40,590 nt of DNA from a virus, in the IMG/VR virus record IMGVR_UViG_3300047157_000093, positions 1-40,590 of that record; one strand, written 5' to 3'. Shown here piece by piece: positions 243-2,643 of this stretch. Both the position numbers and the translations under genes were made by a program. The notes below the pieces were generated by a model that was not told the origin of the DNA, did not search any database, and saw only the letters and a program-made list of their open reading frames with translations. The number at the start of each line of letters is the position of its first letter. The stretch's first letter is position 1.

Positions 243-356
243 CTGAAGCCGTTCTTGTTTCATCAAAACATGCGTTCTGGGCTAAATTAAATGTCTTGAC
301 TTCTGAGAAACGGCTTAGGTAAGCCATTCTGGCCAGGAATTGGCCCTAATTTATTG

Positions 357-385
357 TTGACCACACCATCCCTATATAGCATAAT
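357..385 (+). promoter_or_regulatory. Sigma70-type promoter for leader 1 and the first operon
   Basis: -35 TTGACC at 357-362, a 17-nt spacer, and -10 CATAAT at 380-385. Each box matches the consensus at five of six positions with ideal spacing. The predicted start at about 391-392 coincides with the first base of hairpin P1 of the structured leader, so the RNA element would begin at the transcript 5' end. Confidence 0.75.
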
Positions 386-391
386 GTCCTT

Positions 392-523
392 GTTGTCGGG
401 GAGGTAAGCACGGCAACGAACGGGGGCCGGAGAGCACGGCCCCACGGTAACGGGACAGCGCGGTGGCGGATCCCGAGATCGATATCCCGCCGGAGGGACT
501 CACGAAACCGGATCGCTCGCCAA
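392..523 (+). ncRNA. Structured 5' leader RNA, copy 1 (upstream of hammerhead 1)
   Basis: Hairpins seen: P1 GTTGTCG/CGGCAAC (392-398 with 411-417, one GU pair); P2 GGGGCCG/CGGCCCC (423-429 with 437-443) closing the loop GAGAGCA; P4 GGCGG/CCGCC (465-469 with 487-491). A 17-nt segment (495-511) follows, then GCTCGCCAA (515-523) leading into hammerhead stem III. The same layout recurs at 2121-2246 with different stem sequences but the same P2 loop, linker and GCTCGCCAA, which is the signature of a selected RNA fold. It could be a sensor domain, a stability element or a trans-acting RNA released by cleavage; the sequence does not decide. No Rfam family is recognised. Confidence 0.82.
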
Positions 524-580
524 CATTGTCTGAAGTTTGCAACTTACTTTACTGATGAGGCCACGCAGGCCGAAACAATG
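524..580 (+). ncRNA. Type III hammerhead ribozyme 1
   Basis: All core elements are present in type III order. Stem III is CATTGT (524-529) with ACAATG (575-580), 6 bp. The cleavage triplet is GTC (528-530), cutting after C530. Stem I is TGAAGT (531-536) with ACTTTA (546-551), 6 bp including one GU. The core box CTGATGA is at 552-558, stem II is GGCC/GGCC (559-562 with 568-571, loop ACGCA), and GAAA is at 572-575. No core position deviates from consensus. It ends in the Shine-Dalgarno (GGAG, 580-583) of the gene starting at 591. Predicted products are a leader of about 139 nt with a 2',3'-cyclic phosphate and an mRNA with a 5'-OH. Confidence 0.93.
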
Positions 581-590
581 GAGAAACACT

Positions 591-812
591 ATGACGACCG
601 AATTGCTGGCAACCCTACGCAACGACAACGACGGGCTTGAGGCGCTGATCATGGAAGGCAACGACAGGTTCAACTACCGCGTCGTCCTGCGAGACAGCGA
701 CGCTGACGCGACCATCATCGTTCAGTTCCGACACAACTACTTCGAGTGCGACGACATCGCACGAGAGTTCCTGCTTAACGAAATCACCCACATCAACGGA
801 GAGACACTATGA
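591..812 (+). CDS. Hypothetical small acidic protein, first gene of operon 1
   Basis: A 73-residue acidic protein of no recognised family; it has no signal peptide or membrane segment. The ATG at 591 is chosen because GGAG (580-583) sits at correct spacing, and because a longer in-frame reading from a TTG at 537 would begin inside the hammerhead. It is the first gene behind hammerhead ribozyme 1 and overlaps the next gene by ATGA, so its translation is probably coupled to the four genes behind it. Position behind the strongest promoter seen suggests early expression, perhaps host takeover; that is inference only. Confidence 0.75.
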   Translation: MTTELLATLRNDNDGLEALIMEGNDRFNYRVVLRDSDADATIIVQFRHNYFECDDIAREFLLNEITHINGETL

Positions 813-1468
813 GCAAGCACACACACCGAGGTCACTGTCAGGTCTGCGGAGCACAGCAGGCAGTCAACAACAAGACCGGGATGATGGCCAAGCATGGCTA
901 CACGGTCGAGAGCGGATGGTTTGAGGGCGAGTGCCCCGGCAGTCACAACCTGCCGCTGGAAGTTGAGCGCACGATGACCGACAACATCATCGAAGACCTG
1001 ACGCGTTCTGCTGACCGGATCCAAAAGCAGGCGGACAACATCATCATCGTCGTCCCCTACCACTACACGGTCCGCACCGGCAACTATGGTAGCGAGAAGC
1101 GCACGGTCAACATCATGGAGGACACTCTTGAGTCCACCTTCGCTGACCTCGGCAAGCGCGTCTACAGCGTCAAGGCGCAATGGGACGACATGGTCGAGCA
1201 GTATCGCTGGAAGCTGAAGGGTCAGGTACGGTTCCTTCGCGCTCACTGCGAAATGATGGCCAAGCTGATCGACAAGCGCCACGGCAACGACCTCGTCGCT
1301 GTCGAGCGCATCGAGCGACAGTCTAAGGGCTTCGCTGACCGGCTTGAGGCCAAGGCATGGCTCGACGGCCTGAAGGCTGAGGGCTGGACTGGACGCATCG
1401 TCACCGACATGTACAAGGGCATCGGCCAAGTCGGCCGCTACAACGCACAAGCGAGGAGAACAGCATGA
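809..1468 (+). CDS. Hypothetical protein with N-terminal zinc-ribbon-like domain
   Basis: A 219-residue protein. The first 45 residues contain CQVCG (10-14), a central HGYT and ECPGS, an arrangement of Cys and His that suggests zinc binding and recurs in phage and bacterial proteins of unknown function. The rest is mostly predicted helical and charged, with no membrane segment. It starts at an ATGA overlap with the preceding gene and has GGAGAG upstream. The role is unknown; the zinc-binding N-terminus suggests contact with nucleic acid or protein. Confidence 0.78.
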   Translation: MSKHTHRGHCQVCGAQQAVNNKTGMMAKHGYTVESGWFEGECPGSHNLPLEVERTMTDNIIEDLTRSADRIQKQADNIIIVVPYHYTVRTGNYGSEKRTVNIMEDTLESTFADLGKRVYSVKAQWDDMVEQYRWKLKGQVRFLRAHCEMMAKLIDKRHGNDLVAVERIERQSKGFADRLEAKAWLDGLKAEGWTGRIVTDMYKGIGQVGRYNAQARRTA

Positions 1469-1695
1469 GCATCACTAAGCATCTGGACAACGAGATCAAA
1501 CTGATCGGGCAGGAGGCGCAAGCACTCCGGGATGAGGGCCGCAACGAGGAGGCTGACGCACTGTACGCAATGTGCGACCGACTCCGGTCCGTCTCGATCC
1601 GAACTGCAACCCAAGCCTGCGAGGAGCGCATACAGCGACACAAGCGTATGCAGGCCAAGCTGGACACATTCGCCAAAGAGGAGGCATTCGCATGA
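1465..1695 (+). CDS. Hypothetical helical protein
   Basis: A 76-residue, highly charged protein that should be almost entirely alpha-helical (long Glu/Arg/Ala-rich stretches with heptad-like spacing). It starts at an ATGA overlap with the preceding gene and ends in ATGA with the next. No family is recognised. Longer antisense and shifted frames across it lack Shine-Dalgarno sequences and are treated as shadows. Confidence 0.68.
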   Translation: MSITKHLDNEIKLIGQEAQALRDEGRNEEADALYAMCDRLRSVSIRTATQACEERIQRHKRMQAKLDTFAKEEAFA

Positions 1696-1931
1696 TCGTA
1701 CACCACACACCCGAGCAACTCGTTAACGGCCCCAAGGGCCACGTGCCGCTGATCAAGGTGACGCTACACTGCACCAGCACCGAGGAGGCCGCCTACATTG
1801 CTGAGACCATGAGGATGGTCAACGACAACTACGCGCCTGATGTCTACGAGAGCGAGCACGTCGTCGTCTGCTACGCCCGACCGCCAAGCTACTGGGAGCA
1901 TGACTTTAGATCCACGGGGGGTGCGCTATGA
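1692..1931 (+). CDS. Hypothetical protein
   Basis: A 79-residue protein starting MIVHHTPEQL at the ATG overlapping the stop of the preceding gene. A longer in-frame reading from 1572 lies fully inside the upstream gene and has no reason to be used. It has alternating beta-type hydrophobic stretches (VPLIKVTLHC, HVVVCYA) flanking a helix, so a small alpha/beta fold is likely. No family is recognised. Confidence 0.65.
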   Translation: MIVHHTPEQLVNGPKGHVPLIKVTLHCTSTEEAAYIAETMRMVNDNYAPDVYESEHVVVCYARPPSYWEHDFRSTGGAL

Positions 1932-1978
1932 CCCCCATTGACATTTTCGTCACGCTGTGCTTGCTTGAGTCTTCATAA
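1928..1978 (+). CDS. Possible 16-residue terminal peptide of operon 1
   Basis: A short frame, MTPIDIFVTLCLLESS, starts at an ATGA overlap with the previous stop, like every other junction in this operon. Its middle is hydrophobic (IFVTLCLL), too short for a secure membrane segment. The -35 box of a candidate promoter (1965-1970) lies within it. It may be a translated tail rather than a functional gene. Confidence 0.3.
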   Translation: MTPIDIFVTLCLLESS

Positions 1979-1993
1979 TATGTCTTATATATT
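1965..1993 (+). promoter_or_regulatory. Candidate promoter in the AT-rich region
   Basis: TTGAGT (1965-1970), a 17-nt spacer and TATATT (1988-1993) fit a sigma70 promoter. The -10 lies in the left arm of the large inverted repeat at 1974-2035, so a protein bound there, or the repeat itself, could affect it. Confidence 0.4.
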
Positions 1994-2060
1994 GATCTAT
2001 AAGATAGTTATTTGTTCATAATATAAGACATTATGGTCGAATTTAATTTCACTTTTTTTT
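1974..2060 (+). promoter_or_regulatory. AT-rich inverted repeat with competing hairpins and T8 tract
   Basis: The arm at 1974-1990 pairs with 2021-2035 to give 15 bp with a two-base bulge. Inside the left arm, TCTTATA (1983-1989) can instead pair with TATAAGA at 1998-2004, excluding the long stem. Eight T residues follow at 2053-2060, too far for a textbook terminator. The region separates operon 1 from leader 2. Possible roles are attenuator, weak terminator, operator or replication element. Confidence 0.5.
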
Positions 2061-2107
2061 AATTATTTTCGGAATAGGGGGAATAAAACACGGACCTGAA
2101 GCGTCAT

Positions 2108-2113
2108 TATAGT
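2108..2113 (+). promoter_or_regulatory. Candidate -10 box for leader 2
   Basis: TATAGT matches TATAAT at five of six positions and lies 8 nt before hairpin P1 of leader 2, the same distance (within one base) as the -10 box of copy 1. The -35 at 17-nt spacing (AAAACA, 2085-2090) is weak, so activity may need an activator, or the leader may also be reached from an upstream start. Confidence 0.45.
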
Positions 2114-2120
2114 GTAAGAC

Positions 2121-2245
2121 GGCGGGATTGACGCCCCGCCAGCCACCGAGAGCAGGTGGCGACGGTTTGGAGACCAAGGGGCGGCGGCCCGGTCACCGGA
2201 TCGAGATCCCCACCGGGGGGACGCGCAAAGCCGGGATGCTCGCCA
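2121..2245 (+). ncRNA. Structured 5' leader RNA, copy 2 (upstream of hammerhead 2)
   Basis: P1 is GGCGGG/CCCGCC (2121-2126 with 2135-2140). P2 is GCCACC/GGTGGC (2142-2147 with 2155-2160) closing the same GAGAGCA loop as copy 1. A local hairpin TTGG-aga-CCAA follows (2167-2177). P4 is CCCGGT/ACCGGG (2188-2193 with 2212-2217), capped by GGAT-cgag-ATCC (2198-2209). The linker at 2218-2234 differs from copy 1 at only four of 17 positions, and GCTCGCCAA (2238-2246) is identical. P1, P2 and P4 stem sequences differ almost completely from copy 1 yet still pair, strong evidence for a conserved fold. Confidence 0.82.
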
Positions 2246-2300
2246 ATATCGTCTGATTGAAACCATCACTGATGACGCCGAATGGAGGCAGAAACGATAT
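2246..2300 (+). ncRNA. Type III hammerhead ribozyme 2
   Basis: Stem III is ATATCGT (2246-2252) with ACGATAT (2294-2300), 7 bp. The GTC triplet is at 2251-2253, with cleavage after C2253. Stem I is TGAT (2254-2257) with ATCA (2265-2268). CTGATGA is at 2269-2275, stem II is GCC/GGC (2277-2279 with 2287-2289), and GAAA is at 2291-2294. The first stem II pair (10.1/11.1, C2276 with A2290) is a mismatch where G-C is usual, so activity may be reduced. The Shine-Dalgarno GGAGG (2284-2288) is in the stem II loop and stem, and bases A2299 and U2300 of the start codon are in stem III. Confidence 0.86.
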
Positions 2301-2301
2301 G
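2284..2301 (+). promoter_or_regulatory. Ribosome binding site and start codon sequestered in hammerhead 2
   Basis: GGAGG (2284-2288) precedes ATG (2299-2301) by 10 nt. G2287 and G2288 pair with C2279 and C2278 in stem II, and A2299 and U2300 pair with U2247 and A2246 in stem III. The folded ribozyme should therefore block initiation, and loss of the upstream strand after cleavage should expose it. Confidence 0.7.
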
Positions 2302-2643
2302 AAAACATTACCCATGTACTACACCACTAGCGGCACCGACGTTGACGCTTACACCCTGCCCGAGTTACGTGAGGGTAAGGTCTACGACCTTCTCAAGGAA
2401 GCTGAGGAGATCATGTACGACGCTTGGAGGGCTAACGGCCGGGAGGACGCAGGTTCATGTGTCTTAGGCGCTGGGATCGAGGTCTGGCACGTTAAGCCAC
2501 GCGCCCGGATCGCAAAGCCGCTTGTCGTCATCCGACAGGTTGCACAGGGCAACGTGAGTTCACACGCGGCGGCACAGCCCGCCATCGAGTTCCTGCGAGA
2601 GCAGGGCATCAACGCACGCTGGAACGACGGCCGACTTGACTAA
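2299..2643 (+). CDS. Hypothetical protein, first gene behind hammerhead 2
   Basis: A 114-residue protein starting MKTLPMYYTT; the longer in-frame reading from 2257 begins inside the ribozyme and is rejected. It has a central helix rich in Glu and Ala and a likely alpha/beta C-terminal half (PLVVIRQVAQ, then a helix AAAQPAIEFLREQGI). No family is recognised. As first gene of the second operon it is the direct target of ribozyme-leader control. Confidence 0.75.
   Translation: MKTLPMYYTTSGTDVDAYTLPELREGKVYDLLKEAEEIMYDAWRANGREDAGSCVLGAGIEVWHVKPRARIAKPLVVIRQVAQGNVSSHAAAQPAIEFLREQGINARWNDGRLD

Follow-up and report, generated by a model that had tools for sequence, protein, structure and literature searches.

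Hammerhead ribozymes are known in phages, one of them at the head of an early operon, and their purpose there is an open question. A 40,590-base virus record (the whole stretch analysed here, hereafter the window) raises it in two places: what would a hammerhead do behind a structured leader, at the ribosome-binding site (RBS) of a first early gene, and would both copies do it? The early genes of this record lie on the plus strand from ~590 and the late genes on the minus strand from ~13,200 onward; several of the late gene products show matches to structural families of tailed phages, and for the major capsid protein the identity to LUZ24-like and other podovirus capsids is, among the matches listed, 29–36%. 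A first-pass annotation, made from the letters alone, had placed two elements at 392–580 and 2121–2300, each heading an early operon. The coordinates proved right, and in operons A and B alike the hammerhead motif lies at the RBS of the first early gene. Its description of both elements as ending at the first start codon has to be refined, as A stops 10 nt before AUG 591 and B ends inside its own AUG (2299–2301). The features are collected in Table 1.

Table 1. Features of the two early leaders and their surroundings in the window.
Feature	Position	Strand	Details	Basis or occurrence elsewhere
Palindrome GGCTTAGGTAAGCC	312–325			Also upstream of the L112 and L174 leaders
Sigma-70-like promoter A	357–385	+	TTGACC-17-CATAAT	Consensus scan, 10/12 matches
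Leader domain A	392–523	+	P1 392–417; P2 423–443, loop GAGAGCA 430–436; P3 ~451–475; P4 485–498, loop CCGG; linker CCGG...GCTCGCCAA 508–523	Pairs checked; aligned to copy B; identical in L111
Type III hammerhead A	524–580	+	Predicted cleavage after C530	Rfam RF00008 and descriptor scan
Shine-Dalgarno (SD) sequence, first gene of operon A	580–583		GGAG; overlaps the end of stem III of hammerhead A
First gene, early operon A	591–812	+	73 aa, function not assigned	Open reading frame list and sequence
Promoter block GGGGAATAAAACACGGACCTGAAGCGTCATTATAGT	2078–2113	+		Same block ahead of early leaders in L112, L137 and L208
Leader domain B	2121–2245	+	P1 2121–2140; P2 2142–2160, loop GAGAGCA 2148–2154; P3 ~2163–2203; P4 2207–2221; linker 2231–2246	Aligned to A; identical in L111
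Hammerhead-like motif B	2246–2300	+	Predicted cleavage after C2253	Descriptor scan
First gene, early operon B	2299–2643	+	114 aa, function not assigned	Open reading frame list

Judged by its sequence, copy A carries a canonical type III hammerhead (CATTGTC/TGAAGT...ACTTTA CTGATGA GGCC ACGCA GGCC GAAA CAATG, the slash marking the predicted cut), with CUGANGA, GAAA, an NUH triplet, three helices and the open end in stem III. The Rfam model RF00008 (Hammerhead_3) matches it at 523–581 with 39.0 bits (E=2.1e-6), under the gathering score of 48.5 bits, which is a curation threshold and not a mechanistic feature; a default Rfam scan of the window reported nothing for this reason. The motif of copy B (ATATCGTC/TGAT...ATCA CTGATGA CGCC GAATGGA GGCA GAAA CGATAT) keeps all strict core bases and three helices in the descriptor scan, and its stem III has 6 bp plus U-A; however, the 10.1/11.1 position at the base of stem II is an unpaired C-A mismatch and stem I has 4 bp, which is probably why Rfam gave no match to copy B even at E<=10. 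The SD sequence of B, GGAGG, lies within loop II/stem II, and its AUG overlaps stem III. The stems of motif B are weak, and the hammerhead is not the best fold of copy B alone, an alternative being favoured by 1.7 kcal/mol. A U10.1-U11.1 mismatch was found to be tolerated and to give more activity than any other mispair (PMC3088659), so that the C-A of copy B should be worse than U-U. Copy B may be weak or inactive as a ribozyme, and the type III hammerhead originally proposed for both elements stands for A and, for the most part, for B.

The leaders themselves are homologous, as had been proposed: P1, P2 and P4 pair in both copies (pair check on sequence), and the alignment of A and B gives a 48-nt block with 77% identity, besides the same overall order. 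P2 carries the same GAGAGCA loop on unrelated perfect stems, GGGGCCG/CGGCCCC in A and GCCACC/GGTGGC in B, for which the chance of occurrence is 0.0008 and 0.0036, respectively. The near twin L111 has the two copies without a single difference, but it is too close a relative to prove constraint. Two pseudoknots are possible in A (GAGC 432–435/GCTC 515–518 and CCGG 490–493/508–511) and fit both copies, but chance alone would, roughly estimated, produce complementarity of this kind in 10–30% of cases, and we therefore only infer them. The folding energy of the leaders alone is unexceptional (z −0.9 to −1.75), and for full-length leader A, with pseudoknots left out, the fold that lacks stems I and III is more favourable than the one that has them. 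The P1 loop of A is complementary to the ribozyme, but a switch built on this was discarded, since B has no such complementarity. Rfam gave no match for the GAGAGCA/CCGG leader domain, nor for any riboswitch or known aptamer family in the window; the exact linker pattern was not found in the genome contigs, and the P4/linker block pattern was met only in L090, whose contig is that of L111, apart from chance coding matches.

Upstream of leader A, the consensus scan places the predicted +1 of promoter A at ~392, the first base of hairpin P1. Copy B is preceded by the block GGGGAATAAAACACGGACCTGAAGCGTCATTATAG, and its promoter block has a predicted +1 at ~2120. Palindrome GGCTTAGGTAAGCC, which comes after an HTH-like gene where it precedes the L112 and L174 leaders, is possibly an operator. 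We also noticed a direct repeat, TTATCCCACGTCATCTTT, at 42–70 and 225–253, between the divergent late and early operons, a possible operator pair, and, within 1967–2033, an inverted repeat with 16-nt arms (1980–1995/2016–2031) that is missing from L111 at the same place and resembles a small palindromic insertion.

Phage sequences gave no match to 591–806, within the first gene of operon A, blastn of 330–2330 against phages gave none either, and the operon-A protein, used as an anchor, found only the contig of L111. Among the 72 loci anchored on RNR, hammerheads occur only in the near twin and in L112, whose helicase protein is 73–75% identical to that of the window. The single L112 hammerhead (866–918; Rfam 27.9 bits) has different stems and the triplet AUA; it precedes the first gene, and ahead of it stand the same promoter block and another leader, ~240 nt long. 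The RNR-anchored loci also yielded leaders in L137 and L174; no hammerhead was found in L137, L174, L208 or L212. The leaders behind the shared promoter block vary greatly, from short in L208 to ~600 nt in L137, where an apparently non-coding and strongly folding stretch (1368–1965; z −3.5; no Rfam match) comes right after the early promoter block. In L174 (405–960; no Rfam match) and L212 (1–340), a large conserved RNA heads the early region; its stems show compensatory changes, and several of its hairpins have a CCU(U)ACAA loop in common. In L212, a tRNA-like sequence ending in CCA comes after it. The early promoter, the leader or both are present in L137, L174 and L208 with no hammerhead found, so that the ribozyme is dispensable in the wider group, which opens its early transcripts with structured RNA, only some members adding a ribozyme.

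The arrangement also occurs in known phages. The hammerhead of Pseudomonas phage PaP3 (45418–45468, minus strand), in a stretch conserved in 71 Pseudomonas phage records, lies directly ahead of ORF71, the first of the early genes, which comprise ORF49–71 (PMC4707531). It is listed among the active core variants tested in vitro, in a study that describes it as nothing more than a variant-core phage ribozyme in an intergenic region (PMC3088659). Hammerheads are likewise found at the first early gene of NV1 (975–1027), UFV-P2 (1141–1193) and Rembedalsseter (1036–1088), and region 1076–1132 of phage tf, which the scan missed, reads by eye as a variant that has an extra U after CUGAUGA and whose stem III includes the annotated start codon, 1130. 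In Clew-1 and phiPA01_302, too, stem III encloses the AUG; in these two, as in copy B and tf, the SD and/or the AUG is part of stem II or III. The Pseudomonas phage hammerheads are unannotated in the sequence records examined. In NV1 (L201:975–1042), the annotated start of gp01, 980, falls inside the hammerhead, the likely start being ATG 1040.

What these phages share with the window is a hammerhead placed at the first early RBS, not a homologous upstream leader: the leader domain of the window showed no similarity to those of PaP3, NV1 and tf, only the hammerhead region of NV1 matching A, and Bruynoghevirus and Vicosavirus leaders gave no usable alignment with each other. PaP3 and the other LUZ24-like phages (Bruynoghevirus), a distant relative group by their capsids, have a type III hammerhead at the same place, mismatched at 10.1/11.1 like copy B (U-U in PaP3), and resemble B also in the start codon within stem III of Clew-1 and phiPA01_302, but theirs is a single copy behind a far longer leader of unrelated sequence. 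The Vicosavirus-type phages (NV1, UFV-P2 and Rembedalsseter) also have a single copy and another upstream domain, although their leader, immediately upstream, is structured and keeps one loop conserved while its stems change (four pairs changed on both sides; n=3), and the SD overlaps or adjoins stem III. In the haloviruses HF1 and HF2, the ribozyme HHphage lies 13 nt upstream of the first gene, in an early polycistronic transcript whose 5′ end maps within 3 nt of the cleavage site; these are archaeal viruses, the core is a variant and no leader domain is described (PMC3088659). The glmS ribozyme and riboswitches have in common with the window a self-cleaving or structured RNA in the 5′UTR, but the window has a hammerhead, with no known ligand and no Rfam riboswitch match.

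From the placement in PaP3, NV1, UFV-P2, Rembedalsseter and tf, leader, hammerhead and RBS form a recurring arrangement, of which the window copies are a duplicated version with an unrelated leader. The first-pass annotation knew of no natural hammerhead joined to such a domain, which does not hold for the Pseudomonas phages, whose hammerheads lie behind long leaders, structured in the NV1 group; the isolation of the arrangement was also overstated, given the L112 hammerhead at the same place and the position of the halovirus one. Similar counterparts do occur in L112, PaP3, NV1, UFV-P2 and Rembedalsseter, and a variant one in tf. On a partial search of the literature, no description appears to exist of hammerheads placed systematically, in LUZ24-like phages and in this lineage, at the first early RBS, nor of the duplicated leader or the GAGAGCA/CCGG leader domain.

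The best explanation, which we consider rather probable, is a self-processing early leader. Host RNA polymerase would start at the first base of P1, and the leader would fold into a compact multi-hairpin domain, of which P1, P2 and P4 are evident from the sequence and the pseudoknots would be further parts. Where leader and RBS meet, the type III hammerhead would then cut itself after C530, and after C2253 less efficiently or not at all, and free the leader as a structured RNA, ~139 nt long in A and ~133 nt in B. Hammerhead cleavage leaves a 2′,3′-cyclic phosphate and a 5′-OH; the remaining early mRNA would thus have a 5′-OH end and a 5′UTR of ~60 nt (A) or ~45 nt (B). Loss of the 5′ strand of stem III would also open the RBS, because part of the SD and/or of the start codon lies within stem III (and, in B, within stem II too). 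The likeliest benefit would be a defined, translation-ready early mRNA, whose 5′-OH should resist 5′-monophosphate-dependent decay, and the freed leader may have a further role. Several observations argue for self-processing: the RF00008 match to A, the specificity of the scan, the L112 hammerhead, which is independent, differs in sequence and yet occupies the corresponding place, the placement at the first early gene in PaP3 and its relatives, NV1, UFV-P2 and Rembedalsseter, with the variant in tf, the persistence of core and pairing while stem sequences differ across phages, the SD and/or AUG in the stems of copy B, tf, Clew-1 and phiPA01_302, the activity of the PaP3 core variant in vitro with the tolerated U-U mismatch, and the HF1/HF2 transcript end near the cleavage site. 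The mismatched core pair in B, the dispensability of the ribozyme in the wider group and the more favourable fold of full-length leader A that lacks stems I and III count against it.

A chance hammerhead-like sequence in a GC-rich, hairpin-rich leader, with which the unexceptional folding energy would agree, is highly improbable: the descriptor scan gave zero unrelated matches in 2.46 Mb of strand, the E-value for A is low, and the same position in other lineages (L112, PaP3 and NV1) contradicts it. A scan of viral contigs for the linker plus hammerhead pattern returned 109 stretches, of which only L090 carries a hammerhead, the rest failing the stem test. That only A works as a ribozyme, B being a decayed duplicate that is now an ordinary RBS hairpin, is compatible with self-processing of A and falls just short of an even chance; the C-A pair, the short stem I, the silence of Rfam and the competing fold of B speak for it, whereas the intact strict core and stem III, and the identity of B in L111, for what so close a relative can tell, speak against it. 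On another reading, the ribozyme would do no more than detach the leader from the early mRNA, and the freed leader itself would be what matters, as a phage small RNA (decoy, antisense or anti-defence). Promoter A is positioned precisely at the beginning of the leader, one P2 loop kept on stems that differ is what a binding site typically looks like, and larger structured leaders stand at this place in L137, L174 and L212; but the latter have no ribozyme, so that release by one is not needed there, no target is known, and we hold this to be unlikely.

Less likely again is an allosteric ribozyme, in which the leader would sense a ligand, protein or RNA, switch cleavage and gate early translation. 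The conserved P2 loop and linker are joined directly to the ribozyme and, in a context-folding test of secondary-structure energies that leaves pseudoknots out, the upstream sequence disfavoured the ribozyme fold more than 92–96% of shuffles did in A (p 0.05), NV1 (p 0.04), UFV-P2 (p 0.07) and PaP3 (p 0.08), partly via strands that could pair with stem III or with the strand of the cleavage site; a CTAGG upstream in the NV1 group is paired with stem III/SD. Nevertheless, no such effect was observed in B (p 0.71) or L112 (p 0.53), the competing strands are not homologous between the copies and are without covariation support, and from one lineage to another the upstream domains have unrelated sequences. 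The leader domain may possibly regulate the ribozyme, for which these energies speak weakly; that the GAGAGCA-loop/linker domain itself switches cleavage, opening and closing the first early start codons twice in one genome, we rate a shade lower still.

Placement at the first early RBS in several divergent lineages gives the phage hammerheads a specific, testable role, early mRNA maturation, some of the ribozymes having the SD and start codon built into their stems. The shared placement looks like a common means by which the first messenger RNAs of such phages are trimmed. The PaP3 hammerhead could be tested in a laboratory host, and, the leader being duplicated here, a single genome provides two versions whose predicted activities differ.

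Other elements were observed in the relatives. Permuted tmRNA genes are encoded at L112:3231–3606, L113:7455–7800, L136:346–690, L151:7802–8146 and L174:3222–3546 (none was found in the window), with tag peptides that include ANDDNYVALAA and ANDSEYALAA, and such genes and tags hint at betaproteobacterial hosts. Tandem hairpins with a common loop, CTCTGRTTAGCTYCAY, and changing stems lie upstream of early genes at L113:3215–3345 and are reminiscent of repeat RNAs. A short intergenic element, CTRRCCCACYYGGCAMCAGRACGGGYC, is present upstream of small genes (L112:1237–1270, L112:1582–1612, L113:3395–3425 and L212:502–531) and can form an H-type pseudoknot (GCC/GGC and (G/A)CCC/GGG(C/T)).
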